Assembly: GCF_020131355.1 (NCBI RefSeq)
Contig: NZ_JAHLEL010000001.1
Coordinates: 1-59,749, forward strand
Source: Pseudonocardia sp. ICBG1293
Lineage (GTDB): Bacteria; Actinomycetota; Actinomycetes; Mycobacteriales; Pseudonocardiaceae
Direction: 5' to 3'
DNA: 59,749 nt
Below are positions 13,485 to 36,390 of this stretch, piece after piece. The notes below the pieces were generated by a model, which had not been told where the DNA came from, did no database searches, and saw only the letters and a program-made list of their open reading frames with translations. The position numbers and the translations under genes are program-made. Each line of letters begins with the position of its first letter. The first letter of the stretch is position 1.

Positions 13485-13490
13485 CTTAAG

Positions 13491-20027: not shown

Positions 20028-20030
20028 ACT

Positions 20031-20088: not shown

Positions 20089-20178
20089 ATGAGCAAGCGA
20101 CCCAACAAGGCTCGATCGAACATAATATTGATTATCGGCTCGCCCGACCTGCCGAAACGCGACCCGGAGCCGTTACTA

Positions 20179-21301
20179 GTGTTGCGGTAACTAGGTTACT
20201 TTACTCACGGGCTGGTTTACGGGATCATGAGCTGTGCCGTTGACTGTGACCGTGGACGTTCCGGCCGCCGACCGCGAGGTGCTGGAGTCCTGGCTGCGTT
20301 CCTCGTCGGTTTCGGCGGGACTGGCCCGACGGGGCAGGATCGTGTTGCTGGCCGCGGACGGGGTGGCGGTCAAGGACATCGTCACACTGGTCGGGGCGTC
20401 GAAGGCGACGGTGATCGGGTGGAAGAAGCGTTACGCCGCTGAGGGGATCGCCGGGCTGGCCGACCGGCCCAAGGCGGGCCGGCCGCCGGTGATCGACGAG
20501 GTCGCGGTCGTGCTCGCCACGCTGGAACCGCCGCCTGAGCGGCTCGGAGTCACGCACTGGTCGTCACGGCTGCTCGGTGCCGAGCTCGGGATCTCCCACG
20601 TGTGGATCGGCAAGATTTGGCGGCGGTGGGGGCTGCAGCCGTGGAAGTCCGAGACGTTCAAGTTCTCCACCGATCCCGAGCTCGAAGCCAAGGTCCGCGA
20701 CATCGTCGGGTTGTATCTGAACCCGCCGGACAAGGCCGTCGTGCTCTGCGTCGACGAGAAATCCCAGGTCCAGGCCCTGGACCGGACAGCGCCGATCCTG
20801 CCGATCATGCCCGGTATCCCGGAGAAACGGACGCATGACTACGTCCGTCACGGCACCACCACGCTGTTCGCGGCGTTAGAGGTCGCGACCGGGCGGGTCG
20901 AGCAGGCGTGCCTGCCGCGGCATCGCCATCAGGAGTTCCTGCGGTTCCTCAAGCAGGTCGCGAAGGCCTACCCGCGGCGCAAGCTGCACCTGGTGGTGGA
21001 CAACTACGCGACCCACAAGCACCCCGCAGTGAAGGCCTGGCTGGCCCGCAACCCGCGGATCACCCTGCACTTCACCCCGACCTCGGGATCGTGGCTGAAC
21101 ATGGTCGAGGTCTTTTTCGGGGTCATCACCCGCCAGGCCATTCGCCGTGGCAGCTTCGGCAGCGTCAGAGAACTGATCGGCGCGATCGGCCGGTTCATCG
21201 ACGGCTGGAACGAACGCTGCCACCCGTTCATCTGGACCAAACCCGCAGACCACCTACTCAACCACTGCCGACCCGGTCAAAGAACATCGTTTACGCGACA
21301 C
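20179..21301 (+). mobile_element. IS630-family insertion sequence
   Basis: The ends read GTGTTGCGGTAA on the left and, in reverse complement, GTGTCGCGTAAA on the right. Each is flanked by TA (20177-20178 and 21302-21303), the target duplicated by this family. The length of about 1.12 kb and the single transposase frame fit IS630. The transposase stop codon TAG uses the target TA. It marks the left edge of the metabolic cargo region. Confidence 0.85.
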
Positions 21302-21304
21302 TAG
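20234..21304 (+). CDS. IS630-family transposase
   Basis: A 356-aa DDE transposase. The N-terminal HTH includes KDIVTLVGASKATVIGWKKRY. The catalytic residues lie in LCVDEKSQV, VVDNYATHKHP and SGSWLNMVEVFF, which is the classical D-D-E order of IS630/Tc1-mariner relatives. GTG at 20234 is used. The copy is intact. In the second copy at 55928 a single C is missing near 56772, which splits the frame before the last acidic residue. Confidence 0.93.
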   Translation: MPLTVTVDVPAADREVLESWLRSSSVSAGLARRGRIVLLAADGVAVKDIVTLVGASKATVIGWKKRYAAEGIAGLADRPKAGRPPVIDEVAVVLATLEPPPERLGVTHWSSRLLGAELGISHVWIGKIWRRWGLQPWKSETFKFSTDPELEAKVRDIVGLYLNPPDKAVVLCVDEKSQVQALDRTAPILPIMPGIPEKRTHDYVRHGTTTLFAALEVATGRVEQACLPRHRHQEFLRFLKQVAKAYPRRKLHLVVDNYATHKHPAVKAWLARNPRITLHFTPTSGSWLNMVEVFFGVITRQAIRRGSFGSVRELIGAIGRFIDGWNERCHPFIWTKPADHLLNHCRPGQRTSFTRH

Positions 21305-21467
21305 CCCTGCAAGCGCCCGAAATGTCTGATAATGCAGAGCCTGGGAACTTTTATCCAGTGCTGAAGTGATGCGCAGCCCACCGCAGTATACTGCTTCTGC
21401 ATACTTCGCGACGATAACTCTGTGTCTAAATTCCAAAAGAGGTCGAAGGCCGCATAGGTCAGCAGGT

Positions 21468-22715
21468 CTAGGGGGTGGTGCGAGAACTTGCCGAGGAACT
21501 ACGACCCAGATCTTCTTGATTCTGCGGAACTAGAACACACACCATAACTGCGAAAAGGGAGATCCCGCAAAGTACCGCACATGCAGCATCGCTCGATTGA
21601 AAGGCGTCTAATAGATAGCCGCCGCCCCACGATCCGAGCAGGGTCCCGATCGACCCTGCTAGCGTAACGGCGCCCAGCGCAACTCCGGCACGACCGAGCG
21701 AACCTACTTTGACGATCTCTTGGTCCAGAGTGGGGCCAATCAACAGCTCAGCGAAAGTCATGGGCAGAATATAGGCCAGCAGGGCACCCCACCCACTGAA
21801 CGGGATCAATACGGCGTACGCGACCGCAAAAGATCCAAAACCGACGATCAGCAGCACTCTCCCGGACGTCCGGGAGAACACGTGCTGCAGCAATGTGTAC
21901 TGAAAGAGTACGCAAAGTATGCCATTAATGGTGAAGAGAGCAGACGCGGCCGCGATGGTGCCGGTCAACTCTCGAGCCAACAGTGGCAGCATTACACTGA
22001 TCTGGCTGTAGATCAACCAGAACATAGTAGAAAGCAGCAGCAAGGGCGCCCAATAGCGAATCGCAGATCGCCATGAGGTCGTTTCCTGCTCGGCCTCCTT
22101 CGGCTCGGCTGCCTTCCTCGTGTCATCGCGAAGTTTGGGCGCAGTGAGGCGACGGGAGAAGAGCAGCGGCGTGACAAACAGGTGTGATGCGATGCAGGCG
22201 CATAGGATGACAGTAAAACCGACCGGATAGACCGCGGCGCCGAGCGCGGGGCCGGCGACGACTCCTGTATTCAAGAATGTTGCCCGTAGCGCTAGCATCT
22301 CTCTGCTACTCGTACCACTCTGCCGGACGAGCTCGATCTTGATTGCGAGGGTAAGCAGGGAACCCCCCACCCCGACACAAACCACGCCGACCACTAGGGC
22401 TGGCACACTCGGGTCGTCATTCGGCTCACTCAGCGCACTGATGAGGACGAGGTATCCAGCGATCCGTCCCGTAAGCCCCGCGGCGAGCACGAAACGCAGC
22501 CGAGTACGGTCGACGATCCACCCGATCACTAGGGAGAAAGCCTGGCTCGAGAATGCCAATAAACCGGCGACGAGCCCCACCGTCGCCGTCGTGAGCCCCG
22601 CTGAATCCAGCCTCAGCGCGAGCAGCGGTACGAACATAAATGTGGTGGCTCCGGTCATGAGCACCACGACGAGCAGCAGGCGCGCCAGGGGCGAAGCCTC
22701 ACGCCATTGACTCAC
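21468..22715 (-). CDS. MFS exporter of the cargo cluster
   Basis: A 415-aa major facilitator with about 12 membrane segments. The N-terminal half includes GWIVDRTRLRF, the loop 2-3 motif A region, and a charged central loop (RKAAEPKEAEQE) divides the halves. GTG at 22715 is chosen because the frame above it is arginine-rich and unlike a membrane protein. It is the last gene of a six-gene operon, 58 bases after the FemAB-like gene. Export of the pathway product, and so self-protection, is the natural guess. In staphylopine-type loci an MFS pump (CntE) exports the opine. Confidence 0.85.
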   Translation of the reverse strand: MSQWREASPLARLLLVVVLMTGATTFMFVPLLALRLDSAGLTTATVGLVAGLLAFSSQAFSLVIGWIVDRTRLRFVLAAGLTGRIAGYLVLISALSEPNDDPSVPALVVGVVCVGVGGSLLTLAIKIELVRQSGTSSREMLALRATFLNTGVVAGPALGAAVYPVGFTVILCACIASHLFVTPLLFSRRLTAPKLRDDTRKAAEPKEAEQETTSWRSAIRYWAPLLLLSTMFWLIYSQISVMLPLLARELTGTIAAASALFTINGILCVLFQYTLLQHVFSRTSGRVLLIVGFGSFAVAYAVLIPFSGWGALLAYILPMTFAELLIGPTLDQEIVKVGSLGRAGVALGAVTLAGSIGTLLGSWGGGYLLDAFQSSDAACAVLCGISLFAVMVCVLVPQNQEDLGRSSSASSRTTP

Positions 22716-22773
22716 TGCCCACGCGCCTGTCCCGCATCGATTCCGATGCTGCTGGTGAAGGCGGGTGTGCCGA

Positions 22774-23982
22774 TCACCTGCTGTCGTCCCGGTCGATCTC
22801 GCGTCCGTCGCCGCGCTCCAACATCGACCGCAGGCCGTCCTGCCGTCGCGCAAACTCCTCTTGGTCGGTAGGAGACTCTCCCGTCGCGGACATCGCGAGG
22901 CCCTCCAGACGTTCGATCCGCGCGCCACGAGAGAGCTTGGCCGTGTATGAGGACATCCCGAGATGCACCGCCTGCAGGGACTGCTGCATCGCAAGGTGGA
23001 CGGTTGAATAGATGCAAAGGTTGAAGTACTCGAAGTTGCGGCCGATTCGCGCATAGTCGAATCCTGCCTGTCGGACGTAGAGTGTGTTGCCCCACGCGAA
23101 GCAGATGACGACGCCGACGGCGCGCTCGCCGTCCTCGAGGAGAAGCACATGGCTGTGGTCGTCGGCAGCCTCGGCGAGCTTCGTCATGTACTGCCGGCGA
23201 GCCGTAACGGAGGAAGCGTGGTCGCCGTACTTGCTCTGCAACTGCGTGCACAACACGGCGGCTACATCCACACAATCGCTTAAACCCCGTCGCGACAACG
23301 TGTATCCGGCACCTTCGAAGATTCTTTGTTCACGCCGCATCTCCCGCCGCTGACGGCCACCGAGCGCGTCGATGTACTCGGCGAGGGTCGCGTGTTCGAT
23401 GTCGATGACGCAGTTCGCACCTGTCGTGAAGAAGGCGTCATCATGAACACCGAGCGCACGAAGCTGCGCTCTTCCCACCGGGTTGAGGTGCAGCGCAGTA
23501 AGGGGCACGCGCGAAGTCCCCGGCCCATGGCCCGCTGCATCAAGGAGCATTGAGAGGACGGCCTCGGCCGTGACGGCGTCGAGTGCGCGGTCGATCGCGA
23601 ACTCTGTCGAGTAACCGGCTTGGGCGCCGACCACCGCGGCCGGTGACCACTCATCGCGAGCGAAGCGAGCGTGCGATCGGCTGAGGAATGTTTCATAGAG
23701 GTGATATGGGCCGGGTGACTCCCCGTAGACGGGAAGCACACCGACCAAGCTTCGATGGAGACCGTAACGGCAGCACAAGTAGCGGACGTTACCGCCGCGG
23801 GCGTACTCGACAGCAAGGAGCCAGGGGCGCGCGACGTAGAAAGAACGGCCGCGGGTCAGGACCTCATACTCGGGCTCCGCGATGTCGCTGATGCTGTCGA
23901 CCGTCTCGACGATGAGCTGGTTGGGGTGATTCGCCTCGGCCACGGGTCGCGTCAGGTTCGGAATGATGGGCGTCAGGGGCAT
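22774..23982 (-). CDS. FemAB/GNAT-like transferase
   Basis: A 402-aa protein of the double-GNAT kind. The segment YIDALGGRQRREMRREQR and the later VLLLEDGERAVGVVICFAWGNTLYVRQAGFD followed by YFNLCIYSTVHLAMQ are typical of FemAB-related or peptidoglycan biosynthesis/recognition proteins. These transfer aminoacyl or acyl groups from aminoacyl-tRNA or CoA to an amine. GGAG lies 7 bases before the ATG. In this cluster it could form an amide bond on the amino-acid scaffold; it could also modify the cell wall for resistance. Donor and acceptor are not deducible. Confidence 0.75.
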   Translation of the reverse strand: MPLTPIIPNLTRPVAEANHPNQLIVETVDSISDIAEPEYEVLTRGRSFYVARPWLLAVEYARGGNVRYLCCRYGLHRSLVGVLPVYGESPGPYHLYETFLSRSHARFARDEWSPAAVVGAQAGYSTEFAIDRALDAVTAEAVLSMLLDAAGHGPGTSRVPLTALHLNPVGRAQLRALGVHDDAFFTTGANCVIDIEHATLAEYIDALGGRQRREMRREQRIFEGAGYTLSRRGLSDCVDVAAVLCTQLQSKYGDHASSVTARRQYMTKLAEAADDHSHVLLLEDGERAVGVVICFAWGNTLYVRQAGFDYARIGRNFEYFNLCIYSTVHLAMQQSLQAVHLGMSSYTAKLSRGARIERLEGLAMSATGESPTDQEEFARRQDGLRSMLERGDGREIDRDDSR

Positions 23983-24059
23983 CGTGGGCTCCGTCGGTCG
24001 AGACGTCGAGGACGCCCAGCACTGCGTGCGGGGTCGATGGTTCCGGGTAGGCAGTCCAA

Positions 24060-25028
24060 TCAGGCGAACGCGACGAAGACCTCACGCGGTCCGGAGAACG
24101 GTAGACGGCCGTGCATTACGGCTCGGTTGTCGATCAGCAGCACGTCGCCGGCCTCCCACTGCACCGGCACTGTGCACTCGGTCAGAGTTCGGCTGATGAC
24201 CTCAACGTAGTCGATCGGGATATCCGTCCCGTCCCCGAAGATCGCGCCGTAGCCGATACGCTTACGCCACCGGTCCATGTTCGTGGCGTCGGGAGTGACG
24301 CTGTCGTCCTTGCGCCAGATGTGGGCCTGGTTGAACCAGACCTCACGACGATCGGTGCCGACAAGCAGCGTCCCCGGCGTTCGGTTGGTGGTGAGCAGGC
24401 CCAACTCGGTCCACTCCGACGAGGTGTAGGTGGACTCGCACAGCGCCGTGACAGCGTCACGATCGTCGGACTCGAAGGTCTCCGACCAAGACTTAACCCC
24501 GCTCGCGTCGCCGCTGACGTGGGGGAGATGCTGGACATAGATGACGCCTCGGGTGTGAAAAGCCTCGCGGATCTCCGCAGGAAGCGCCTGATAGACTCGA
24601 TGCCCGTCGATGAGCGTGGTCGCACCGCCCTCATCCGCGGGGCGACTGCAGCCAAAGCACAGGGTCTTCGGGTGCCACGGCGCGTAGGACAGCTCGTTGT
24701 GCGCTCGGAGGAGCCTCGATGGACTCGGCCCGGCCGCGTTGTAGATCAGGCCCTTCTCGGCTTGACGTGGCGAGTCACCGCCTCGGTACGGGGCAAGTTG
24801 GCCGAGCAGGCTCTGCGCGACGCCCTCGAACTCCTCGACGGTATACACTTCAAAGTCTCGGAAGAGCACTGCACCGGCTGAGTCCAGTAGATCGCGGATC
24901 TGAGTCCGCTCTGCAGGACCCAGGTCCTCGAGCGCATCGACCGGGCGCGCAGCATGGCCACGGCGTCGGGCAATCGGGGGGAAGCCGTCCTCAAGGACGA
25001 ATACGTCGAGTGTGTCGGCAGTCGTCAT
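24060..25028 (-). CDS. SyrP/TauD-like Fe(II)/2-oxoglutarate oxygenase
   Basis: A 322-aa non-haem oxygenase. The metal triad is seen as H-x-E in RAHNELSY (about residues 110 and 112) and the distal histidine in NRAVMHGRLPF (about 306), with the 2-oxoglutarate arginine at about 315. The segment ADEGGATTLIDGHRVYQALP and the WEAGDVLLIDN strand are typical of SyrP-like beta-hydroxylases acting on amino acids. I start it at ATG 25028, which overlaps the aminotransferase stop as ATGA; ATG at 25037 is also possible. It probably hydroxylates an amino-acid intermediate. An aspartate rather than glutamate would be expected for a halogenase-free variant, so hydroxylation remains the plain choice. Confidence 0.88.
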   Translation of the reverse strand: MTTADTLDVFVLEDGFPPIARRRGHAARPVDALEDLGPAERTQIRDLLDSAGAVLFRDFEVYTVEEFEGVAQSLLGQLAPYRGGDSPRQAEKGLIYNAAGPSPSRLLRAHNELSYAPWHPKTLCFGCSRPADEGGATTLIDGHRVYQALPAEIREAFHTRGVIYVQHLPHVSGDASGVKSWSETFESDDRDAVTALCESTYTSSEWTELGLLTTNRTPGTLLVGTDRREVWFNQAHIWRKDDSVTPDATNMDRWRKRIGYGAIFGDGTDIPIDYVEVISRTLTECTVPVQWEAGDVLLIDNRAVMHGRLPFSGPREVFVAFA

Positions 25029-26311
25029 GACATCCATTCGTGGTGATCGTGGGCATCGAGAGCTTCCCCGAGTGCGGTCAGGAACGCGTGGTCGGTCTCG
25101 TCGTCGTGGACCAAGGACAAGGTCACGAAGCCCGACCTTCCGATATAGACATTGCGCTCGAGAAGCTCGTGAAACAGAAGCTGCACACGCCTCCGGTCGA
25201 TTCCGGCGAGGTCCGCCGCACTACGGATCGGTCGGTCGGTCGGATGGATACTCATTAACGAGCCCCAGCCGGTTGCCTGAAATCCGCGTGTGCGGAGCAA
25301 CTCATCGGCGTGCTTGCGCAATCGCTCTCCGCGCTGGTGCAAGTCGTCGAGGCGCTCGGCGGTGAGGACCCGTCCGAGCATGGCGGCCGCTGCCGCCATA
25401 GAGAATCGGTTGTTATTGAACGTCCCGGAGTGGTCAAAGTGTGGTTCATGAGAACGGTCGAGTAAGCACATGACATCCTCGCGACCACCGACGGCTCCGA
25501 AGCCCAGCCCGCCGCCGATGTATTTCCCGACTGTGGTCAGATCAGCGTTGATTCCCAGAGCTGACTGGGCGCCGCCAGGCGTCGTCCGCGATGTCTGCAC
25601 CTCGTCGAAGATCAGAACTACGCCATGATCGGTGCACAGGTCACGAACCCCCTGCAGGAAGGTTGCATCACCCGGGATCCGCCCGCCGGAGCCGAGCATC
25701 GGCTCGAGCAATACGCAGGCGAGGCGGCCCCCGTAGGCACGGAAAGCCGAGGTGACGGAGTCGAGATCGTTGTAGTCGCAGATCGTCAACTCAAAGGGGA
25801 CATTGAGCGAGTCGCTGCCGCGAGCAAAGCTGAGGAATCCACCATGGTATCCGCCATCGAAGCCGAGCACCGTGGTGTGCCCCGACGCCTTCGCTGCCAA
25901 GGACACCGCTACCAGGTTGGCCTCGGTTCCGGAGCTAGTGAATCGGACGCGATCCATCGACGCATACCGCTCGCACAAGAGACGAGCCACCTCGGCCTCC
26001 ACGGGCGCGACCGCGCCGAACGACCACCCGCTGACCAGGACTGACTCGACCGCCTCGCGTACCTCTCGCGGATTATGACCCGCCAATCCCACGCTGTAGT
26101 CACCAAGGTAGTCGAGATACTCATGACCGTCGACGTCCCGGAGCCGGCAGCCCCAACCGGACTCGACGGCGAACGGGAACGGCGTGAGGTCCAGGACCGA
26201 CCTCGTAGTTCCTGACGGCAGGAATCTCGCCGCCGAAGCGTGTAATCGCGCGCTCATCGGACGACGTTGCGCATATCTGGCGTGTGCATGCTGTAGAGCG
26301 TCATCCAGCAC
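25025..26311 (-). CDS. Class III PLP aminotransferase (GSA-aminomutase-like)
   Basis: A 428-aa fold-type I PLP enzyme like glutamate-1-semialdehyde 2,1-aminomutase. The N-terminal LPSGTTRSVLDLTPFPF, SSGTEANLVAVSLA for phosphate binding, LIFDEVQTSR for the pyridine-nitrogen aspartate, and the Schiff-base lysine in LTTVGKYIGGGLGFGAVGG are all present. GTG at 26311 is chosen: it overlaps the end of the dehydrogenase by 11 bases and has GGAG about 8 bases before it. It could make or move an amino group on a small acid, for example to give a beta-amino acid or a diamino acid. A haem role is unlikely in this operon. Confidence 0.9.
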   Translation of the reverse strand: MLDDALQHAHARYAQRRPMSARLHASAARFLPSGTTRSVLDLTPFPFAVESGWGCRLRDVDGHEYLDYLGDYSVGLAGHNPREVREAVESVLVSGWSFGAVAPVEAEVARLLCERYASMDRVRFTSSGTEANLVAVSLAAKASGHTTVLGFDGGYHGGFLSFARGSDSLNVPFELTICDYNDLDSVTSAFRAYGGRLACVLLEPMLGSGGRIPGDATFLQGVRDLCTDHGVVLIFDEVQTSRTTPGGAQSALGINADLTTVGKYIGGGLGFGAVGGREDVMCLLDRSHEPHFDHSGTFNNNRFSMAAAAAMLGRVLTAERLDDLHQRGERLRKHADELLRTRGFQATGWGSLMSIHPTDRPIRSAADLAGIDRRRVQLLFHELLERNVYIGRSGFVTLSLVHDDETDHAFLTALGEALDAHDHHEWMS

Positions 26312-27575
26312 GGCGCGGCTCCATTCCTTGGGAGGTGTCGCCGGTCGGCACACCGCCTGTGCCCATTGGCAATAAAAGGAAGGGTTCCTGGTGGTTCCCC
26401 TGGAGGTCGTGCGGCGCCTCCAAAACGGAACGTAGGAACGACACATCAGCTGGTATGAGCGCCAACTGGGCGCTATACCCGTTCAGATCGCTCGCAGACA
26501 CTCCGAGGCTAGTAGCAGTTCGCTCAACCTCGGCCTCGTAGCGTTCAGTTGCTGGCAGGGCGATGCCCGCTACATCTGCGAGCCAGCGGATCGTCCGTAA
26601 GCCCGGGAGATCCTCGCGAACGAGCCGTGAGTGTCGCAACTCTGCGAGTGAGGCGCATGATGTCGAGCGATAGATTTCTCGGCAAGACTGCATCATCTCG
26701 TAGAAATCCGACCGGTACGGCAGTCCGTACTGGCGCTCGATGATCTGAGGAAAAGTCTCGGTCTCAACGCCATAGGCCTGGGCCAGCTGGACCCGTTCCT
26801 CGTCGAGCTGAGCGAGCAGAGGGGCGAGGTTGCGGTCGATGCCGTCGGTGTAGTGCAGGTAGCGGTGGCCGGCGTGAGTCCGGGCGAGGTTGCGGGCGTA
26901 GAACGCGACCCCGACATGAATGATGTAGCCGAGCGGGTCGAACAGCAGACCGGTGCCTGAGCGCACCACGATCTCCGGCCACGACGTCCTTCCGATTCGC
27001 TCGCCCAGCGGGAACAGTTCTCGGAGCCGCGTGATTGCTATTTGAGGAGTGCGCGAGTACACCGAGACGTTCACCGAGAGCTTGCGTTTGAACGTGATGT
27101 GGGCACCGGCGACCCGCGTTCCGTAGAAGGAGTCCTCGACCAGAACGATCGAGGCGTCACGGAGTTGCGGCGTGCCTCGCACCCAATTGGCGACGACGGG
27201 CTGCCCGCCCTGCCCCGCGCGGACGAACGTGATCACTTTTCCAGCCAGGCTCCTGAGCCCGGCAATACGTCTCAGCAGCTCGAGCCGTAGCACAGGGATA
27301 TCCGGGACGGTCACGATGATGTGATCGGCTCGACTCAGGAGTGCGTCGGCGCACGGACTATGGAGTGATTCGAAGTGATCTGCTCTCAACCTCACGCTGT
27401 CCTGCTCCCCGTCGAGCAGATTTGTCCGAGTGATCGTGCCTGAAGCCCGCGCCTGGGCGTTCTCTCGTACGAACAGCAGCGTGGGGTGCAGGTCCTGGTG
27501 CTCTTCGAGGCAGACCAGGTCGGTGAGCAGTGTGAGGCCGACGTGTCCCCCGCCAATCACGACGATACCCGACAT
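26301..27575 (-). CDS. Opine dehydrogenase, staphylopine/pseudopaline type
   Basis: A 424-aa NAD(P)-dependent opine dehydrogenase. The Rossmann motif IVVIGGGHVGLT is at about residues 4-15. The C-terminal domain has GLLFDPLGYIIHVGVAFYARN, then YLHYTDGIDRNLAPLLAQLDEERVQLAQAYGV, then a long helical tail with DLPGLRTIRWLADVAGI, the layout seen in CntM-like enzymes. Such enzymes reductively couple an amine with an alpha-keto acid. No nicotianamine-synthase-like (CntL) or histidine racemase (CntK) gene is next to it, so the amine partner must come from elsewhere in the cluster. It starts 4 bases after the previous gene. Confidence 0.82.
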   Translation of the reverse strand: MSGIVVIGGGHVGLTLLTDLVCLEEHQDLHPTLLFVRENAQARASGTITRTNLLDGEQDSVRLRADHFESLHSPCADALLSRADHIIVTVPDIPVLRLELLRRIAGLRSLAGKVITFVRAGQGGQPVVANWVRGTPQLRDASIVLVEDSFYGTRVAGAHITFKRKLSVNVSVYSRTPQIAITRLRELFPLGERIGRTSWPEIVVRSGTGLLFDPLGYIIHVGVAFYARNLARTHAGHRYLHYTDGIDRNLAPLLAQLDEERVQLAQAYGVETETFPQIIERQYGLPYRSDFYEMMQSCREIYRSTSCASLAELRHSRLVREDLPGLRTIRWLADVAGIALPATERYEAEVERTATSLGVSASDLNGYSAQLALIPADVSFLRSVLEAPHDLQGNHQEPFLLLPMGTGGVPTGDTSQGMEPRRAG

Positions 27576-27579
27576 CGAG

Positions 27580-28500
27580 TCAGTACTCGAGCGAGATCAT
27601 TGTGCGGCCGTGGTGTTCGACGATCTCGTCGGGCACCACGTATGAGCGCAACAGAAGCCGACGGCAAGCACCTGTGTCGATTGGATCGCGTCCGTGTAGA
27701 CAGTGGTCGTTCGGGATGATTAATGCCTCGCCCTCGCGCGCCGCATGTCCGTGGAGTCGGCCGACCTCCAGCGCGGTCGCGTGGAGCTGCTGATGGGCGG
27801 CATCAGCGGCAGCACGCTGTTCCGGGGCCAGACCGGAGATTGGGGTGAAGGCCGAGAAGTTGAGCCGCACGACGACGGCTCCGTCAATGAACTCGATCAG
27901 CGGCATCTGACGCACCCGCTCGTAACCCCAGCCCAACGAAGAACCTGCTCGTGCCTCGAAGATCGGCAAACACAGTACGTCGACGACGTCGGGGGCTAGT
28001 CGCTCGACGACCGTGCGGGCCGGGGCGAGAAGCGTGCAAGGCACCGCTCCCTCGGCCACATGCGGTACCAAGACCAGCGTCCGGGGTCGACACACGTCGT
28101 CGGCCCACGCGAGGTCGTTGTGCATCGCCAGCAGGTCGGTACCCGAACTTTTCTCTTTCGAGAGTTCAGTCGGGCGGATATCGGTAATGTAGGACCCGTT
28201 GTAATCGCTGTAAGCGACGGGGACCCCGACCGTGCGCCCGAGAAGAAGTGCCAAGATCTTGCTGTGCTCGACGTCGTCGAACCGCGGGAGATGATTCACC
28301 AAGACGGGCTCGCCCTTATTGGCATCGCAGAACGCACGCACTCGGTCGATCGGCGTCACGACGTGCTCGCGCAGGAAATTCAAGTAGCGGTATTCGGTCT
28401 GGCCGGGACAGTTCTCGTGCACCTTATGGACGATCTCCTCCACCAATGCCTGTTCGGTGTCGTCCAGCACGATCCGGGCGTTCGGTCCTGTTCTAGGCAT
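27580..28500 (-). CDS. VioC-like Fe(II)/2-oxoglutarate oxygenase
   Basis: A 306-aa clavaminate-synthase-like oxygenase. The facial triad is H-x-D in AMHNDLAW (H127, D129) and H269 in DHCLHGRDP, with a likely 2-oxoglutarate arginine in the ACRRLLLRSYV segment (280-285). The order VAYSDYNGSYITDIRP then the triad resembles arginine or asparagine beta-hydroxylases such as VioC and AsnO. AAGGAG lies 7 bases before the ATG. It is the first gene of the operon, so its substrate is perhaps a free amino acid that feeds the later steps. The substrate cannot be fixed from sequence alone. Confidence 0.87.
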   Translation of the reverse strand: MPRTGPNARIVLDDTEQALVEEIVHKVHENCPGQTEYRYLNFLREHVVTPIDRVRAFCDANKGEPVLVNHLPRFDDVEHSKILALLLGRTVGVPVAYSDYNGSYITDIRPTELSKEKSSGTDLLAMHNDLAWADDVCRPRTLVLVPHVAEGAVPCTLLAPARTVVERLAPDVVDVLCLPIFEARAGSSLGWGYERVRQMPLIEFIDGAVVVRLNFSAFTPISGLAPEQRAAADAAHQQLHATALEVGRLHGHAAREGEALIIPNDHCLHGRDPIDTGACRRLLLRSYVVPDEIVEHHGRTMISLEY

Positions 28501-28770
28501 GAGTCAGCTCCTTCGTGAGGTTCGTGATCTTGTCTCGCGAAAGGACGACACCAGCCAGGCGGTCTCGAACATGTGCTGCGCTAGGCAGCATCCCTCTAGG
28601 CTCCGGCCACGGGCGGGCTCGGTTCGACTGTTGGGGCGAGCACTTGAGGTGACGTAAGCACAGCTTCGAACCTAGCGCAACTGTCAGTTGATTTTCTGAC
28701 TTGACTTCAACTGCTCGTTGTCTACGCTGGTCGGGAGACGACTACGGCTCCAGCAGCTGGGAGGCAGAGA
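28501..28770. promoter_or_regulatory. Divergent promoter region with two palindromes
   Basis: This 270-base gap separates the minus-strand biosynthetic operon from the plus-strand regulator operon. A promoter-like pair TTGACT (28701-28706) and TACGCT (28723-28728), 16 bases apart, points to the XRE gene. CAACTGTCAGTTG (28678-28690) is a perfect palindrome. CAACTGCTCGTTG (28708-28720) is a near copy that sits exactly in the -35/-10 spacer. Their centres are 30 bases apart, about three helical turns, as expected for cooperative binding by a repressor. Confidence 0.6.
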
Positions 28771-29265
28771 GTGACTGGCGCAAACACCGATGACGGCGGG
28801 ATGCAGCGCCCCCCTCGCCCCGTCGTCGAGCAGGCCTCGCTCGCCGACGAGCAGGTATCACTCCTGGGCTCCCGTCTCGATCGACTGTTCCGGATGCGAA
28901 GCGGCGACAAGAGGCTCACCAACAAGGTGGTCGCCGCCGAGATACAGCGGCGTCGACCGGGACTGCGGGTGAGTGGCGCTTATCTGTCCGCCCTTCGCGC
29001 AGGAACTCGGGTCAATCCGTCACGAGATCTCTTGGTGGCGCTCGCTGAATACTTCGGCGTCTCGCCCAGCTACTTTCTTGACCGAGACGAATCCGACCGC
29101 ATCACCGCGCAGCTCGACACCCTTGAAGAGCTGCGCGCCGCAGGTATCCGAGGCATCGCGATACGAGCTATGGGACTGTCGAGCGAGAACCTCGAGGCCA
29201 TTACCTCAGTCCTCGATCAGGTTCGCAAGCTCCAGGGGCTGCCCCCCGTAGACGGGGAAACGTGA
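28771..29265 (+). CDS. XRE-family regulator
   Basis: A 164-aa DNA-binding protein. The HTH includes TNKVVAAEIQRRRPGLRVSGAYLSALRAGTRVNPSRDLLVALAEYFGV, with the usual five-helix layout of Cro/C1 proteins, and then SPSYFLDRD. A short helical C-terminus (ITAQLDTLEELRAAGIRGIAIRAMGLSSENL) is common in the actinobacterial type that pairs with ImmA/IrrE peptidases. GTG at 28771 has GGAGG upstream. The protein probably binds the two palindromes just before it and so controls both divergent operons. Confidence 0.88.
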   Translation: MTGANTDDGGMQRPPRPVVEQASLADEQVSLLGSRLDRLFRMRSGDKRLTNKVVAAEIQRRRPGLRVSGAYLSALRAGTRVNPSRDLLVALAEYFGVSPSYFLDRDESDRITAQLDTLEELRAAGIRGIAIRAMGLSSENLEAITSVLDQVRKLQGLPPVDGET

Positions 29266-29266
29266 G

Positions 29267-29830
29267 ATGGCGCATCGAAGTGGACCTAGCCGGCCGCAAC
29301 AGCCGAATTTTCGCAGCCTGCGGCGGCGAGCTCGGTCCCTGGTCGAATCTCTCGACTTGCCAGACCCGTGCGACATGTCCGCGCTGCAAAAACGGGTCAG
29401 CACGGTGCGAAAACGCCCTGTCGAACTAATAGGACTCGACGTAAAAACCAGCGGACTGAGCGGCTTGTGGGTCGAGACTGCGGAGATCGACCTCGTCGTG
29501 TATGAGGCGTCAGCCGGGTTTCAGCACCGCATTCACATCGTTGCCCACGAGTTCGCCCACATGCTGTGCGGTCACACGAGTACAAAATCGATGACCGACC
29601 AAGTGATTGCGCTCCTGTTCCCCGATCTCGACCCGACCTTTGTCCGCGGGATGTTGGGCCGAGGCGGTTACGATGACCGCGACGAGCAGGAAGCCGAGGT
29701 CGTCGCGACGGTGCTACTGGAGCGCCTTGCTCGCAACGAGCAGCCGACGCTGGTAGCTCCTTGGTGCGCGGAGACCGACGCGCTGAAGCGCATCTCCCGG
29801 TCGCTGCGCAGAGATTGGCTCGAGAGGTAG
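29267..29830 (+). CDS. ImmA/IrrE-type metallopeptidase
   Basis: A 187-aa protein with the zinc motif HIVAHEFAHMLCGH (HEFAH as HExxH) and a downstream acidic segment, RDEQEAEVVATVLLERLA, whose glutamate can be the third ligand. ImmA and IrrE cleave or antagonise an XRE-type repressor in response to a signal. It starts one base after the XRE stop, so the two are coupled. The simplest model is that it inactivates the XRE protein and so switches on the biosynthetic operon. Confidence 0.88.
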   Translation: MAHRSGPSRPQQPNFRSLRRRARSLVESLDLPDPCDMSALQKRVSTVRKRPVELIGLDVKTSGLSGLWVETAEIDLVVYEASAGFQHRIHIVAHEFAHMLCGHTSTKSMTDQVIALLFPDLDPTFVRGMLGRGGYDDRDEQEAEVVATVLLERLARNEQPTLVAPWCAETDALKRISRSLRRDWLER

Positions 29831-29835
29831 GTGTT

Positions 29836-30861
29836 GTGGACGAAATCAAGGACTGGACGTTCTTGTCGTGTGCTGTGGTCTGTTTAATCGCAGACGTGTA
29901 CCTAGCAGTAGGACTGCGAGGTCGCGCGGAGGATCGATCGTTACAAATGCTCATTCTTGCGTTTGCAGCCAAAGCCGTATCCTTGACTTTGTCGGCCCCG
30001 ACAGTTGCAACCTTCATTGATCAGATTGTCGGAGTTCCGAACGTTAATGCCCTCGTTGTGCATTTGCTCGGCGGCGTTGTCTACAGCACTGGAATGTTAG
30101 TTGCGCTGAGCTACTGGGCCTACCCAGTGGAGCGAGCGCAGCGTCGAGCGATTATTTGGATCGTGCTTTCGGTGATCATGTCCGGAGTGCTGATAGATAT
30201 GTGGTTGGCTGCGACCAACACCGTTACAGCCCGCTCCGGAAGATACCTACTAGACAACCTTGAGTTACCGTCGGTTGCAGTTTATCTCTTGCTTTACATC
30301 GCTTCTTTTGTCGCAGGACTGCTTGGGGTGCTATTAACGTGCCTACGGTATGCGCGTGTCGCCACCGGTGCGTGGTTGCGGCGCGGCCTGTACGTTTCCG
30401 CGTTCGGCGCTTCTGTCTATCTGCTGTACTGCGTTCATCGAGTCGTTGGCGTGATGCTTCCGGGCCTGCGCGCCGACTTCCCGGACATCGAATTGGCAAC
30501 GCCTTTGTGCGTTGGTGTCGGCGCCCTGCTCATAGTTGTGGGTTTCACTCTGCCGTCGTGGGGTATCAAGCTGTCGGCTGCGGCTCTCTGGTGGCGCGAC
30601 TATCGCAATCATCTTGCGCTCTACCCACTGTGGTCCTCGCTCTACAGGCAAGTTCCCACGATCGCCCTCGACCCGCCGCGCTCACGGTGGGCCGACTGCC
30701 TGCGGGTACGCGACGTCCGCTATCACCTCTGTCGTCGCGTCGTCGAGATCCAGGACGCCCGGCTCTCCCTTCAGGCCGACGGTGGCCTCTCTGTTCCTGC
30801 CGGTCAGCCCAGACTCGCTGATGAGGTGGCTTGGCTCGTGCACATGTCGCGATCCACATGA
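29836..30861 (+). CDS. DUF6545 (MAB_1171c-like) membrane protein
   Basis: A 341-aa protein with seven or more membrane segments followed by a cytoplasmic tail. The tail holds LALYPLWSSLYRQVP and CRRVVEIQDARLSL, the hallmark of the MAB_1171c group. Such proteins are commonly found right after XRE and ImmA/IrrE genes in actinobacteria. They may sense or transport a signal that triggers the peptidase; this is inference. The start is GTG 29836. The protein is shorter than many relatives and ends close to VAWLVHMSRST. Its stop overlaps the AbgT start as ATGA. Codon use is visibly less GC-rich than the plasmid backbone. Confidence 0.75.
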   Translation: MDEIKDWTFLSCAVVCLIADVYLAVGLRGRAEDRSLQMLILAFAAKAVSLTLSAPTVATFIDQIVGVPNVNALVVHLLGGVVYSTGMLVALSYWAYPVERAQRRAIIWIVLSVIMSGVLIDMWLAATNTVTARSGRYLLDNLELPSVAVYLLLYIASFVAGLLGVLLTCLRYARVATGAWLRRGLYVSAFGASVYLLYCVHRVVGVMLPGLRADFPDIELATPLCVGVGALLIVVGFTLPSWGIKLSAAALWWRDYRNHLALYPLWSSLYRQVPTIALDPPRSRWADCLRVRDVRYHLCRRVVEIQDARLSLQADGGLSVPAGQPRLADEVAWLVHMSRST

Positions 30862-32411
30862 ACGAAGCCCGAGGATTCTCTTCGGCGCGACCTACTCACC
30901 CGCATCACACTGGCGGCCGCACCGTAGCCCGGGCTCTCGCGGCGGTCGAACGGCTCGGCAATAGGCTTCCAGACCCGTTCTGGTTGTTCTGGATGCTGGC
31001 CCTCGCAGTCATCGTGCTCAGCGCCGCGCTCTCGACCACCGGGTTCGCCGCCCGGAACTCGAGTGGCAGGCTCCTGCATGTCCGCAGCCTGCTCAGCTCT
31101 GATGGTGTTGCGATGATGGTCGGTGGCGCGGTCCGGAACTACGCGAGCTTCCCTCCCTTAGCCACTGTCATCGTCGTGCTCCTCGGTATCTCGGTGGCGG
31201 ACCGCAGCGGACTCATCACTGCGCTCCTGCAGCGCATGGTGCTGCAGGTCTCGGGCCCCTCACTGACCTTTGTCCTGTCGCTGACCGCCATGGTCGGCCA
31301 CGTTGCCGGCGACGCTGCTTACGTGACACTGATCCCGATCGGAGCGATGGCGTTTCAGGCAGCCGGGCGCAGTCCACTCCTCGGTTGCGTTGTCGCGTTC
31401 GTGTCCGTCTCCGCCGGCTACGACGCCTCTCCCCTGCTGACCAGTACCGACGTCCTACTCTCGGGCATCACGACCGCAGCGGCAAACACAGTAGACCCCG
31501 GCCTGGTAGTGAGCCCTCTGTCGAACTACTTTTTTGGTCTCGCGTCTTCGCTTCTCATCGCTGCAACTATCACCGTGGTCGTAGAGACTGTGCTCGCCCG
31601 GTCACCCGGCCTCGGCCATGACGAGACCGCGGGTTTGAAAACAGATGCTGCCCACGCGCCCAATGAGCCAAACAACCGGGAGACCCGTGGACTGTGGGCG
31701 AGCGCTGCGGTCGCACTCGGCTTCGTTGTCGCCCTCATTCTCGTGGTGCTTCCATCAGGCTCGCCGCTGCGCGGGCCCGGTGGGAGCCTGACCCAGTCTC
31801 CACTGATCACCGGGATCGCCCTGGTGCTCGGGGTGTTCTTCACCGCTGTCGGCCTGGCCTACGGCCTGACGACCGGAACGTTCACCTGCGCTCGTGACGT
31901 TGTCGCCGCGATGAGCGACGGCGTTCGCTCTCTGGCGCCAACTTTGGTCTTGTTCTTCGCAATCTCGCAGTTCCTCGCCTACTTCACCTGGACCAACATA
32001 GGTGAGATTGTTGCCATTAGGGGTGCGGAAACCCTAACCAGACTAGGAGCACACGAGTGGCTGGTGCTCGTCGGCGTCGCCGCTGTCATCACTGTGATGA
32101 ACTTGTTCATCACCAGCGGATCAGCTCTATGGTCGTTGGTTGCTCCCGTCGTCGTGCCGATGCTGCTCCTAACAGGAATCCCTGCTGAGGCCACGCAGGC
32201 GGTCTACCGCGTCGCCGACTCGGCCACGAACTGCATTACGCCGATGAGTCCTTATTTCGCGATGGCACTCCGACACCTACAGACGTATCGCAAGACAGCG
32301 GGCATCGGGACTTTGGTTTCACTGACGTTGCCCGTTGCAGGTGCGGTCTGGATCGTGTGGATCCTCTTCTTCATCCTCTGGCATCTGCTCGGTATACCAT
32401 TTGGTCTCTAG
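30858..32411 (+). CDS. AbgT-family transporter
   Basis: A 517-aa membrane protein of the AbgT family. The N-terminal ERLGNRLPDPFWLFWMLAL, SLTAMVGHVAGDAAYVTLIPIGAMAF, VSAGYDASPLLTSTDVLL and the C-terminal NLFITSGSALWSLVAPVVVPML and VADSATNCITPMSPYF are diagnostic. Family members either import p-aminobenzoyl-glutamate (AbgT) or expel sulfonamides (MtrF, YdaH). The ATGA overlap with the DUF6545 gene ties its expression to the regulator operon. In this cluster it could import a precursor or act as a second exporter. The nearby CPG2-like peptidase makes an acyl-glutamate-like substrate an attractive idea. Confidence 0.92.
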   Translation: MNEARGFSSARPTHPHHTGGRTVARALAAVERLGNRLPDPFWLFWMLALAVIVLSAALSTTGFAARNSSGRLLHVRSLLSSDGVAMMVGGAVRNYASFPPLATVIVVLLGISVADRSGLITALLQRMVLQVSGPSLTFVLSLTAMVGHVAGDAAYVTLIPIGAMAFQAAGRSPLLGCVVAFVSVSAGYDASPLLTSTDVLLSGITTAAANTVDPGLVVSPLSNYFFGLASSLLIAATITVVVETVLARSPGLGHDETAGLKTDAAHAPNEPNNRETRGLWASAAVALGFVVALILVVLPSGSPLRGPGGSLTQSPLITGIALVLGVFFTAVGLAYGLTTGTFTCARDVVAAMSDGVRSLAPTLVLFFAISQFLAYFTWTNIGEIVAIRGAETLTRLGAHEWLVLVGVAAVITVMNLFITSGSALWSLVAPVVVPMLLLTGIPAEATQAVYRVADSATNCITPMSPYFAMALRHLQTYRKTAGIGTLVSLTLPVAGAVWIVWILFFILWHLLGIPFGL

Positions 32412-32489
32412 CCAGTAGGTAGCCACCAAGGCACGTAGCATTACCTTCTAAAGACTTAAGCCGAACGAGAAGAACGGTGGGATACGTTT

Positions 32490-33728
32490 ATGGGTAGCCG
32501 AGGAACTCCGGGTGTTCACATCGGTGGCCGCGACATTCTAGTCGTAGGGCGACGACGGCTTGAGCTGGTGCACCGCATGGCCATCGACCCAAAACTACGA
32601 ATCTCATTGATTACCGAAGCGGACTGCCTGTCAGTTTACCCACCTATGGAAGCCGTCGAAATCGTGCAGGACGTCCAGAATCTTGACGAGGTACGACAGG
32701 CCGCTTTAAAATTGGGTAGCCACCGCGATTTTGCAGCTATCGTCGCACCAGGCGAAAGCTCGATACCGACCGGTGGATACCTGCGTTCCTACTTTGGTAT
32801 GGCCGGGATGTCGTTTGACGTTGCACACGCCTTCTGTAACAAGCACGCAATGAAGAATCGGTTGCGGGCCGCCGGCGTACCGGTCGCGGACGACCGCTTG
32901 GCCGAAACCAGCCAGGTGCTTCGGGAACGAGTACTTGAGAACGGTTTCCCCGCCGTCGTGAAGCCTGTTTGGAGCGACGGCGCGGCCCACGTTCACGTCG
33001 TGCGCGACAACGGCGAACTCGACGCACTCACCCGATCAGACAGCCCGTTCCTGCGCGAACAGTCGGCACCTTTCCTCGTCGAGGAGTTCGTCCAGTTCGA
33101 CGAAGAGTTCCACTGCGACGGCCTCGTCTACGATGGCGAGGTCGTGTTTGTCGCGAGTTCTCAGTACATCAGACCTACTTTGAATGCATTCGGCCGTACG
33201 TACGGTTCATTCACGCTGCCTAGTAGCTCCCCCCATACCTATGCACTTAGAGAGCTCCACCGCCGTGCCGTTGCGGCCCTAGGGCTACAGAATTCAGTCA
33301 CCCACATGGAGGCGTTCCGAACCAAGGACGGTTTCATGGTTGGCGAGATCGCTTGCCGACCGGGCGGCGGAGTTGTTCCTAGGCAAATGCTTGACGCTTA
33401 TGGGTTTGACACCTGGCGCCACTTCATGGCGACAGAGCTGAACGAACAAATCGAATGGAGTCCGAGAGTTTCACCAGGAGTATGGTTGACAGTGCAGTTT
33501 CCGCTTCGGCGCGGAACCGTACGCTCGGTACCCGATTGTAATATATTCGAGGATGTTCCTGCAGTGATTGATACTGAAGTGCGAGTTCGCCCGGGACAGT
33601 GCATCGACGGCACTCTCTACGCGTCGTCGATGTCGGGGATGAGTCACTGTCATCTGTCTTCGATAGAGGAGGTCGAACCCCTGATAGAACTGCTCGAGAC
33701 ACGATTCACGGTCGAGTATGAACGATGA
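32490..33728 (+). CDS. ATP-grasp ligase
   Basis: A 412-aa ATP-grasp enzyme. After an N-terminal Rossmann-like part come NGFPAVVKPVWSDGAAHVHVV (ATP lysine), PFLVEEFVQFDEEFHCDGL (EE for the adenine hinge) and HMEAFRTKDGFMVGEIACRPGGG (metal-binding Glu and Arg-Pro-Gly loop). The family joins a carboxylate to an amine through an acyl-phosphate, as in dipeptide antibiotics such as bacilysin or dapdiamide. It is the only clear amide-forming ligase of the cluster. It starts 78 bases after AbgT and its stop faces the M20 gene 19 bases away. Confidence 0.87.
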   Translation: MGSRGTPGVHIGGRDILVVGRRRLELVHRMAIDPKLRISLITEADCLSVYPPMEAVEIVQDVQNLDEVRQAALKLGSHRDFAAIVAPGESSIPTGGYLRSYFGMAGMSFDVAHAFCNKHAMKNRLRAAGVPVADDRLAETSQVLRERVLENGFPAVVKPVWSDGAAHVHVVRDNGELDALTRSDSPFLREQSAPFLVEEFVQFDEEFHCDGLVYDGEVVFVASSQYIRPTLNAFGRTYGSFTLPSSSPHTYALRELHRRAVAALGLQNSVTHMEAFRTKDGFMVGEIACRPGGGVVPRQMLDAYGFDTWRHFMATELNEQIEWSPRVSPGVWLTVQFPLRRGTVRSVPDCNIFEDVPAVIDTEVRVRPGQCIDGTLYASSMSGMSHCHLSSIEEVEPLIELLETRFTVEYER

Positions 33729-33747
33729 ATGGCAGAGGTCATCCGGC

Positions 33748-34842
33748 TCAGTCGGCAGTGGAGGTGCGGACCAGTCCTGCAACGAGGTCGGCGCGCTCAA
33801 CCATGAAGTCGATGAGCAGGTGCTCATCGTCGCTGTGCGCTCCGCCACCGACCGCACCGAGGCCGTCGAGGGTCGGGACCCCGAGAGCGGCGGTGAAGTT
33901 TCCGTCGCTGCCTCCGCCGACGTGGACATCCTCCACACCGGGGCAAAGTCTTCGTGCGAGGGCGATTAACTCGATCGCCGTCGAGCGTGGCATCGGGGGG
34001 CGTCCGATGCCGCCCGACACGGTCAGCGCAGCTCCGGGGAGGCGCGGGGCGAGCGCTGCGAAGCTCTGCTCAACGCGGGCCTTCTCCTCGTTGGTCTCCA
34101 CGCGCACATCGACCGCGATCTCGGCGTATGCGGGAACGACGTTGTCGAGAGTCCCGGCTCTCGCCAGTGTGGGGATGACTGTCGTTCCGAGATCGGGTCG
34201 CCCTAGTGCAGCGATCTCGTGCACCTGATGTGCAGCTTCGATCAGAGCGTTGATGCCGGCCTCGGGTTCGAGACCGGCATGAGAAGCACGCCCGGTCACG
34301 TGGACCCCGAAGGTTCCACATCCCTTTCTACTCGTCTTGAGGGCGCCACCCACACCGGCGCCTTCAAGTACCAGAACGGCACGGCACCCCGTTGCGAGTT
34401 CCTCGATCAGCTCGCGGGAATGGTGCGACCCTGTCTCCTCGTCACAGGTAACCAACACCTTGACGTGGTCGAGCACTGGCAAACGGCTTAGCCCCTCCAC
34501 ACCCTGCACGATGCCACCGAGCATGTCGAACACACCTGGGCCGGTGACGATCCGATCGTCGACGGCGAAGGGGCGAGCCGCGAGCGTTCCGAGTGGGAAC
34601 ACAGTGTCGTGGTGCCCGAGCACCAGCACGCGGGTCTCGCCACCCCCATCCCACAGCACATGGGGTCCGACTTCGGTGTGTACCAGATGCACCGACCGAC
34701 CGAGTCTCCGTTCGAGGAGGTCGGCGACGGCGAGCCCTGAGGACTGCAGTGACGTCGGATCACCCGAGGGAGACTCGATCTCAACGAGCTGGCGAAGATC
34801 GTCGAGCATAGACGTGACACGGGTGCCGTCTCGAACCAGCAT
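33748..34842 (-). CDS. M20-family peptidase (carboxypeptidase G2-like)
   Basis: A 364-aa zinc carboxypeptidase of the CPG2/M20A type. Ligands and catalytic residues are seen in LGHHDTVFPLGT (H77, D79), GPGVFDMLGG (D106), CDEETGS (E135 base, E136 ligand), LVLEGAG (E160) and GGGAHSDDEHLL (C-terminal His). The dimerisation domain lies between about 175 and 290. CPG2 removes C-terminal glutamate from folates and related N-acyl amino acids. In the cluster it could trim the product, release a leader amino acid, or give self-protection. An IS end lies only 14 bases upstream of the ATG at 34842, so its native promoter was probably displaced. ATG at 34809 is an alternative start. Confidence 0.9.
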   Translation of the reverse strand: MLVRDGTRVTSMLDDLRQLVEIESPSGDPTSLQSSGLAVADLLERRLGRSVHLVHTEVGPHVLWDGGGETRVLVLGHHDTVFPLGTLAARPFAVDDRIVTGPGVFDMLGGIVQGVEGLSRLPVLDHVKVLVTCDEETGSHHSRELIEELATGCRAVLVLEGAGVGGALKTSRKGCGTFGVHVTGRASHAGLEPEAGINALIEAAHQVHEIAALGRPDLGTTVIPTLARAGTLDNVVPAYAEIAVDVRVETNEEKARVEQSFAALAPRLPGAALTVSGGIGRPPMPRSTAIELIALARRLCPGVEDVHVGGGSDGNFTAALGVPTLDGLGAVGGGAHSDDEHLLIDFMVERADLVAGLVRTSTAD

Positions 34843-35544: not shown

Positions 35545-36390
35545 TCACTTCGGCTTCGGCTTCGGCTTGGTGAGGCGGCGGTGGCAGATCAGGGCGCAGG
35601 CCAGCGATAACAGCGCGGTGATCGTGGATTCGGCGCGGTCGTAGCGCAGCGCGAGGCGGCGGAAGTCCAGCAGCCAGGACATGGTGCGCTCGACGACCCA
35701 GCGGACCCGCCCGAGCCGGGTGGAGTCCTCGATCCCGCGCCGGGCGATCCGCACCCCGATCCCACGCCCACTCAGGTAGCGGCGGCAGCGGGGATAGTCG
35801 TAGCCCTTGTCGGCGTGCACCTTGTCCGGCCGACGTCGCGGACGCCCCGGCTGTCCCGCCCGTTCGCGGACGCCGGGGTTGGTGTCCAGCAGCGGGGCGA
35901 GCATCCGACTGTCGTGGGTGTTCGCCCCGGTGACCAGCGCATGCAGCGGGAGCCCGCCTCGGTCGCAGAGCACGTGGTACTTGCTGCCCGCCTTCCCGCG
36001 ATCGGTCGGCGAGGGCCCGGTGGCCTCGCCGCGGCGCTTGGCCCGCACGCTCACGCTGTCCACCGCCGCCCGCGACCAGTCCAGCAGGCCCTGCTGGGCG
36101 AGGCGGTCGAGCATCACCCGGTGCAGCTGGGCCCAGACCCCGGCCTGCTGCCACTGCCGTAGCCGCCGCCAGCAGGTCACTCCGGACCCACAGCCGAGCT
36201 CGGCGGGCAGCGCGTTCCAGCTGATCCCGGTCTTGAGCACGAACACGATCCCGGCCAGAGCGGCCCGATCCGGCACCCGCGGACGGCCTGTCCGTCCCCG
36301 CTTGTGCTTGCGCGGCTTGGGCAGCAGCGGCTCCACCAGCGCCCACAGCTCGTCGCTCACCAATCGCTCGACACAAGATCGCCGCGCCAC
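35545..36390 (-). CDS. IS5-family transposase
   Basis: A 281-aa DDE transposase. An N-terminal DUF4096-like part (LVSDELWALVEPLLP, GIVFVLKTGISWNALP) precedes the catalytic part with AAVDSVSVRAK (first Asp), VHADKGYDYP (second Asp) and VRWVVERTMSWLLDFRRLALRYDR (Glu with the YREK-like signature). GTG at 36390 is chosen to give the usual N-terminus. It is complete and in frame. The C-terminus ends in a short Lys-Pro repeat. Confidence 0.93.
   Translation of the reverse strand: MARRSCVERLVSDELWALVEPLLPKPRKHKRGRTGRPRVPDRAALAGIVFVLKTGISWNALPAELGCGSGVTCWRRLRQWQQAGVWAQLHRVMLDRLAQQGLLDWSRAAVDSVSVRAKRRGEATGPSPTDRGKAGSKYHVLCDRGGLPLHALVTGANTHDSRMLAPLLDTNPGVRERAGQPGRPRRRPDKVHADKGYDYPRCRRYLSGRGIGVRIARRGIEDSTRLGRVRWVVERTMSWLLDFRRLALRYDRAESTITALLSLACALICHRRLTKPKPKPK

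Follow-up and report, generated by a model that had tools for sequence, protein, structure and literature searches.

The presence of an opine dehydrogenase, two Fe(II)/2OG oxygenases and two peptide-forming genes at one locus of Pseudonocardia sp. ICBG1293 raises the question as to whether these genes act together and, if so, on what product. The window, that is the whole stretch of 59,749 nucleotides analysed, is probably plasmid DNA, and a near-match search returned no plasmids carrying the DNA of this locus. We put it at slightly better than even that the locus, which spans 21.5-34.8 kb and belongs to a family of six actinobacterial loci, makes an opine-type antimetabolite that is capped with other amino acids and exported. 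All open reading frames of the original prediction lie where it had placed them, and the gene content, observed directly, is given below with the transposase genes around it.

20234..21304, plus strand: DDE_3 transposase (PF13358), bordering the locus
21468..22715, minus strand: MFS transporter, candidate exporter (PF07690, 90 bits); start uncertain, longest ORF from 23150
22774..23982, minus strand: FEM, FemAB-like/GNAT transferase (PF13480 and PF04339 above cut-off)
24060..25028, minus strand: OXY2, second Fe(II)/2OG oxygenase, TauD family (PF02668, 125.6 bits; structures 1y0z, 9yut)
25025..26311, minus strand: PLP, class III aminotransferase near beta-amino-acid transaminases (PF00202; 4ao9 355 bits, 2yku 353 bits)
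26301..27575, minus strand: ODH, opine (octopine/nopaline-type) dehydrogenase (GGGHVG; invariant H220, R317, D322)
27580..28500, minus strand: OXY1, Fe(II)/2OG oxygenase, KDO1/AsnO/VioC/clavaminate-synthase fold group (H127-x-D129...H269, R281/R285)
28771..29265, plus strand: XRE-type regulator, divergent from OXY1 (PF01381, 23.8 bits, cut-off 23)
29267..29830, plus strand: HEXXH protein, presumably ImmA/IrrE-like, named by motif
29761..30861, plus strand: MAB_1171c/DUF6545 membrane protein (NF042915, 224 bits, cut-off 100; PF20182)
30831..32411, plus strand: AbgT-family transporter (PF03806, 456 bits; TIGR00819, 380 bits, below cut-off 754)
32490..33728, plus strand: ATPG, ATP-grasp ligase nearest L-amino acid ligase 4wd3 (EIACRPGGG; 157 bits)
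33748..34842, minus strand: M20 metallopeptidase/amidohydrolase, glutamate carboxypeptidase-like (PF01546, PF07687)
35545..36390, minus strand: IS4/IS5-type transposase (PF13340, PF01609), past the other border

Twelve proteins of the locus were checked against Pfam. Of the families proposed earlier, TauD (in both oxygenases), Octopine_DH, Aminotran_3, MFS_1 and ATP-grasp scored above the curated cut-offs, as did Acetyltransf_6 and FemAB_like for the proposed FemAB-like transferase; Peptidase_M20 and ABG_transport also passed, and the HEXXH protein had no Pfam match. The motifs HND...HGR (OXY1), HNE...HGR (OXY2), GGGHVG and EIACRPGGG are present in the translations as predicted, and none of the 12 proteins has a Pfam match to an A, C, KS or carrier domain, in keeping with the description of the locus as NRPS/PKS-free. 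The transporters, M20, ligase and transaminase matched NCBIfam equivalogs or subfamilies, all under cut-off (for M20, PRK06133 at 220 bits, cut-off 349).

The gene spacings from OXY1 to FEM are compatible with one transcription unit. OXY1 and ODH are separated by 4 bases, ODH and PLP overlap by 11 bases and PLP and OXY2 by an ATGA, as in the tight operon originally described, the last two being dependent on the starts chosen; FEM starts 77 bases after the preceding gene. The PLP start is probably GTG 26311 (longest ORF from 26446), because its relative in a related locus, L018, suggests the same start. OXY2 read from ATG 25028, which overlaps the PLP stop (longest ORF from 25037), has 322 aa, the same length as the database entry. 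An MFS pump had been said to end the operon, and the MFS_1 match upholds the pump but not its listed start at 23150; this falls within the FemAB gene and the ORF is matched in Pfam from residue 159 on, so we place the start near 22715.

In altered gene neighbourhoods, the five core genes are found again in five further actinobacterial loci, where they are 50-76% identical to those of the window, which indicates that the gene set is beyond chance. Across the six loci compared (the window included, two near-identical), M20 is found in 6/6, as are at least one ATP-grasp enzyme and one MFS pump, and the XRE-ImmA-DUF6545-AbgT divergent block in 3/6; in L002 and L018 the XRE relatives are 66-69% identical and those of the ImmA/IrrE-like protein 63-65%. 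The six-gene operon of the original prediction fits the spacings but makes up half of the locus, and the divergent block and M20 recur too. The peptide-forming genes were observed to vary independently of the core, in this small sample of six loci. Relatives of FEM (38% identical, with shared Pfam families) and of ATPG (49-52%) are found in L015 and L018, and L018 holds in addition a 28% permuted ATP-grasp enzyme, so the caps are not mutually exclusive. The permuted enzyme passes its Pfam cut-off in L018 only; those of L002 and L014 are weak (20-24 bits, cut-offs 29-32). The split of the window from L018, L002 and L003 has a support of only 74, and occurrence of the locus is very patchy. Judged by these sequence comparisons, the window locus belongs to a gene-cluster family with a conserved core and varying peptide-forming genes.

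Predicted models show that OXY1 has the fold of the KDO1/AsnO/VioC/clavaminate synthase group, with the 2-His-1-carboxylate and 2OG arginine of that type; its nearest structures, among the matches listed, are amino-acid hydroxylases and clavaminate synthase. The iron ligands and two arginines (H127, D129, H269, R281, R285) are invariant in 31/31 aligned sequences, the window included. The position aligned to AsnO E125 is D or E in 30/31, as expected for a free amino group. Identity to the free-amino-acid hydroxylases KDO1, AsnO and VioC and to clavaminate synthase is 16-22%, and unlike these OXY1 has its own invariant residues around Y97-N101-T106-D107. DfmD, which an excerpt of PMC9296572 assigns to dehydrofosmidomycin, was dropped as a guide to OXY1, the match being only 20 bits. 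No relatives of OXY1 were found in viral contigs.

ODH carries the Rossmann motif and the PF02317 helical domain (58.6 bits, cut-off 30), and its modelled fold, closer to opine dehydrogenases than to ketopantoate reductases, shows it to belong to the opine dehydrogenase family; its catalysis is predicted. H220, R317 and D322 are invariant in a 25-row alignment and are candidate counterparts of the catalytic His, Arg and Asp of CENDH. Identity to CENDH (1bg6) and octopine DH (3iqd) is only 17%.

The transaminase had been called GSAM-like, an identity that we reject on scores: GSAMs reach at most 206 bits, against 353-355 for beta-phenylalanine/beta-transaminases, and both hemL models are missed (TIGR00713, 244 bits vs cut-off 527; PRK00062.1, 268 vs 398). 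VpAT-type beta-transaminases have the motif R41, V43, E75, Y76, according to an excerpt of PMC9850050. PLP retains the R, V and Y, has D for E75, and carries S where 4ao9 has R398 in the alignment. PLP may therefore deviate from a standard beta-transaminase, R398 presumably being functional in 4ao9. Relatives of OXY2 are at least 57% identical, the next down being at 40%.

FEM is a candidate peptide-bond-forming cap enzyme. ATPG aligns with 4wd3, which we take to be RizA, over residues 35-405 of 412, covering the ATP-grasp core and nearly the full length, and resembles BacD and DdaF weakly; we call it RizA-like rather than a member because LAL_C2 stays below the Pfam cut-off (21.1 bits vs 29.4), which the 52% identical L015 enzyme passes (39.6).

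Judging from the gene families, the steps originally proposed are likely: hydroxylation, amino transfer, reductive amination, ligation and export, the product being a prediction. ODH would couple a keto acid to an amino (or beta-amino) acid through the amino group of the latter, and OXY1 would oxidise either the amino acid before this step or the opine after it, the two enzymes yielding a secondary-amine amino acid in oxidised form. This compound would be modified by the transaminase, probably acting on a beta-keto/beta-amino acid, and by OXY2, and made into a capped peptide by the exchangeable ligases, FEM and the RizA-like ligase contributing one amino acid each. M20 may trim or remove the cap for self-protection or release, AbgT (a candidate antimetabolite efflux pump) and the MFS protein would offer export routes, and the XRE/ImmA pair may be the cluster switch.

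The same genes could instead degrade a peptide or opine imported by AbgT, with M20 hydrolysing it and ODH (running oxidatively), the oxygenases and the transaminase breaking down the parts. M20 enzymes, AbgT transporters and class III transaminases have roles in uptake and breakdown too, and a BKACE beta-keto-acid cleavage enzyme, an Ala_racemase_N protein and a gamma-glutamyltranspeptidase beside M20 in L018, the locus covered by the family search for this neighbourhood, could indicate the same. Against catabolism, at least one ATP-consuming ATP-grasp enzyme and one MFS pump are found in all six loci. The core also stays constant while the peptide-forming genes change, and given the patchy occurrence as well we consider catabolism unlikely.

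ODH might also complete a staphylopine/pseudopaline-like metallophore exported by the MFS pump, but it scores higher with CENDH and octopine DH, none of the 12 proteins matches a nicotianamine-synthase or metal-uptake family in Pfam, and we know of no role for oxygenases, peptide ligases or M20 in opine metallophore pathways, making this reading very improbable. Equally improbable is an isonitrile route, in which ODH would join glyoxylate to an amino acid and the Fe/2OG enzyme would convert the N-carboxymethyl product to an isonitrile. ScoE is an Fe/2OG enzyme that does so in a pathway using a beta-amino acid, which the beta-transaminase could provide, and the adjacency of an opine dehydrogenase and an Fe/2OG enzyme in 9/9 loci would suit a two-step reaction. 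Against it, no isonitrile-forming enzyme is among the matches listed for OXY1, the D/E position is that expected for a free amino group, and we lowered this route because OXY1 is closest in fold to amino-acid hydroxylases and clavaminate synthase.

The OXY1-ODH pair also occurs on Pantoea agglomerans and Klebsiella plasmids (L005, L006, L007), where OXY1 (45-48%) adjoins ODH (36-39%) alongside an ATP-grasp enzyme and an MFS pump, as in the window. Unlike the window, these clusters contain a PhyH oxygenase, a DapD-like acyltransferase, an SDR and LysE, and PLP, OXY2, FEM and M20 had no match in them. A near-match search found the Klebsiella cluster in no E. coli genomes. Returning to the opine-type antimetabolite, it is possible, if doubtful, that OXY1 and ODH form a portable warhead module of two genes, giving an oxidised opine pharmacophore in otherwise unrelated small antibiotic clusters of actinobacteria and enterobacterial plasmids, with peptide caps that can be exchanged. 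In the actinobacterial branch a 3-oxo acid would then pass from the transaminase to ODH, yielding an N-(carboxyalkyl) amino acid; the clavulanate route includes oxidation of such a compound. L005 (eight genes, 7.8 kb, 49.11% GC) was compared with P. agglomerans PNP-3 (8.5 kb, 49.06% GC; accession MN807451) by published description. The eight genes and near-equal GC agree, but an excerpt of PMC7744662 gives PNP-3 four predicted biosynthetic genes and places it within an antiSMASH phosphonate/NRPS region in strain 3581, which does not fit, so that L005 is at most a possible counterpart of PNP-3.

Ligase-made dipeptide antimetabolite clusters of the RizA, BacD and DdaF types resemble the window in being small and NRPS-free, with an ATP-grasp amino acid ligase and an exporter; the window differs in having two peptide-forming genes of differing type, plus M20. 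To our knowledge, none of these sets combines an opine dehydrogenase with two TauD oxygenases and a beta-type transaminase. In the open-licence PMC subset, judged by title and abstract start, no described cluster among the matches listed corresponds to the locus, as the original prediction had supposed, nor was a described member of the OXY1-ODH chemical class found among them; PMC10787698, on metagenomic opine dehydrogenases, was the only one of these articles with a dehydrogenase term. Ligase-made (non-NRPS) antimetabolites are easily overlooked in genome mining, and several small Pantoea clusters escaped antiSMASH, according to an excerpt of PMC7744662. If our reading is true, the OXY1-ODH pair would give genome searches a compact marker for a chemical class in soil actinobacteria and enterobacteria, with ODH as an opine dehydrogenase whose chemistry is that of an antibiotic and not of a metallophore or nutrient.

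Twelve genes lie within 21.5-34.8 kb of the window, and Pfam families were assigned to the proteins of 11 of them, the exception being an ImmA-like protein. Features of the locus, its borders and the surrounding replicon are as follows.

27580-28500, minus strand: OXY1, Fe(II)/2OG oxygenase, first in transcription order
26301-27575, minus strand: ODH, opine dehydrogenase, second, after OXY1
25025-26311, minus strand: PLP enzyme, class III aminotransferase near beta-amino-acid transaminases, third, after ODH
24060-25028, minus strand: OXY2, Fe(II)/2OG oxygenase, fourth, after the PLP enzyme
22774-23982, minus strand: FemAB-like protein (FEM), fifth, after OXY2
21468 to about 22715, minus strand: MFS pump, sixth, after FEM
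divergent from OXY1: XRE regulator, ImmA-like protein, DUF6545 membrane protein, AbgT transporter and RizA-like ATP-grasp ligase
locus end, minus strand: M20 peptidase
20234-21304: transposase at the locus border
35545-36390: transposase at the locus border, of a different family from the first
13764-18539 and 49459-54234: TrwC/MobF relaxase-helicase ORF, 1591 aa

The locus is adjoined by a PF07929 protein (plasmid pRiA4b ORF-3-like; 34920-35513, 212 bits). G+C content in 2-kb steps is 58-64% from 20 to 34 kb and mostly 66-77% in the remaining window, and because of this lower G+C and the two transposase families at its borders the locus looks like an acquired block. A 16.1-kb stretch occurs twice (7969-24076 and 43663-59749; 99.75% identity), the copies being 35,694 bases apart and the second running to the contig end. 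The simplest explanation would be a circular plasmid, about 35.7 kb in size, whose sequence continues beyond its own start and is fused within a Tn3 transposase gene to other DNA (1-7968; 76-77% G+C). The Tn3-family transposase DNA (7969-10303) is present in 15 near-identical full-length copies in the genome, the window's two included, and in partial copies, with 22 matches listed. The region of the first relaxase copy has a relative in a 26-kb Pseudonocardia alni plasmid (77% across 22% of the query).

Comparison of six related actinobacterial loci, the window's included, revealed a fixed core of OXY1, ODH, PLP, OXY2 and M20 in all six, each also with an MFS gene, and a changing set of peptide-forming genes, or caps. 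FEM and the RizA-like ligase occur jointly in the window, L015 and L018, the last with an additional distant (28%) permuted ATP-grasp, while L002, L003 and L014 carry what is probably a permuted ATP-grasp, together with another MFS. Only the permuted ATP-grasp of L018 reached the Pfam cut-off; those of L002 and L014 scored 20-24 bits, under it, and that of L003 is 97% identical to that of L002. In a phylogeny built on the five core proteins, L014 paired with L015 (support 100) and L018 grouped with L002 and L003 (support 74). As the caps differ between the sister loci L014 and L015, and L018 shares the window's caps yet groups with L002 and L003, the caps appear independent of core phylogeny in this small sample of six loci. 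Three loci (the window, L002 and L018) contain the XRE-ImmA-DUF6545-AbgT block; it was not detected in L003, L014 or L015, although its absence from L015 carries little weight, that contig measuring just 15.1 kb. In L003 the position that the XRE-AbgT block takes in L002, immediately upstream of OXY1, is occupied by an IS5-like transposase in two pieces (8192-9039). Beside M20 in L018 (1005-4807) are a gamma-glutamyltranspeptidase, a BKACE beta-keto-acid cleavage enzyme and an Ala_racemase_N protein, which may be part of the pathway in that locus.

OXY1 (45-48%) and ODH (36-39%) are also neighbours in the plasmid-borne loci L005 and L006 (Pantoea agglomerans) and L007 (Klebsiella), co-located with PhyH, DapD-like acyltransferase, SDR, ATP-grasp, MFS and LysE genes, and we take these eight genes as one set. 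OXY1 adjoins ODH in all nine loci read; a tenth record, NZ_CP031652, has a partial OXY1 match (40% covered) with other pieces of the set elsewhere. In the protein database 346 sequences are grouped under the Klebsiella-form OXY1 (P0087, 96% identical to the copy at 1541-2461 of L007), as against one Klebsiella plasmid in the plasmid collection searched.

A single ODH scan of genome contigs yielded L002 from Streptomyces samsunensis and L003 from S. violaceusniger. ODH was also searched for among 62 genomes of the genus and among 396 sampled from the phylum, with the own genome as the only match. Of 392 genomes sampled from the genus of the L002 genome, 3 carried OXY1 (two new), as did 2 of 390 in the window's family (one new), the three new genomes being read as the sources of L014, L015 and L018. 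Counting the window's own proteins, database searches gave 45 ODH (among the 8000 best candidates scored), 66 OXY1 and 193 OXY2 proteins (best 120 listed); Amycolatopsis AA4, Krasilnikovia, Actinoplanes NPDC049316 and one Streptomyces avermitilis strain are common to the matches listed for all three.

From its family, ODH would use a keto acid to N-alkylate an amino group, and OXY1, whose fold group comprises hydroxylases of free amino acids, would oxidise either the amino acid or the opine. The transaminase could be the source or the consumer of a beta-amino/beta-keto acid and OXY2 would add a further oxidation; FEM and the ATP-grasp ligase, or elsewhere other ligases, would attach amino acids, M20 would trim or remove a cap and AbgT/MFS would export. 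The main competing reading, which we consider unlikely, is that the locus is catabolic; the M20, AbgT and transaminase families and the neighbours of M20 in L018, BKACE and gamma-glutamyltranspeptidase, can be cited for it, and the presence of an ATP-grasp enzyme and a pump in all six loci counts against it. No description of the gene set was found among the matches listed in the open-licence PMC subset, judged by titles and abstract starts. Changing caps around a fixed core fit a peptide coat around an antimetabolite core, and we rate the locus as a likely member of the NRPS-free, ligase-made antimetabolite clusters, here with a proposed opine-type core.
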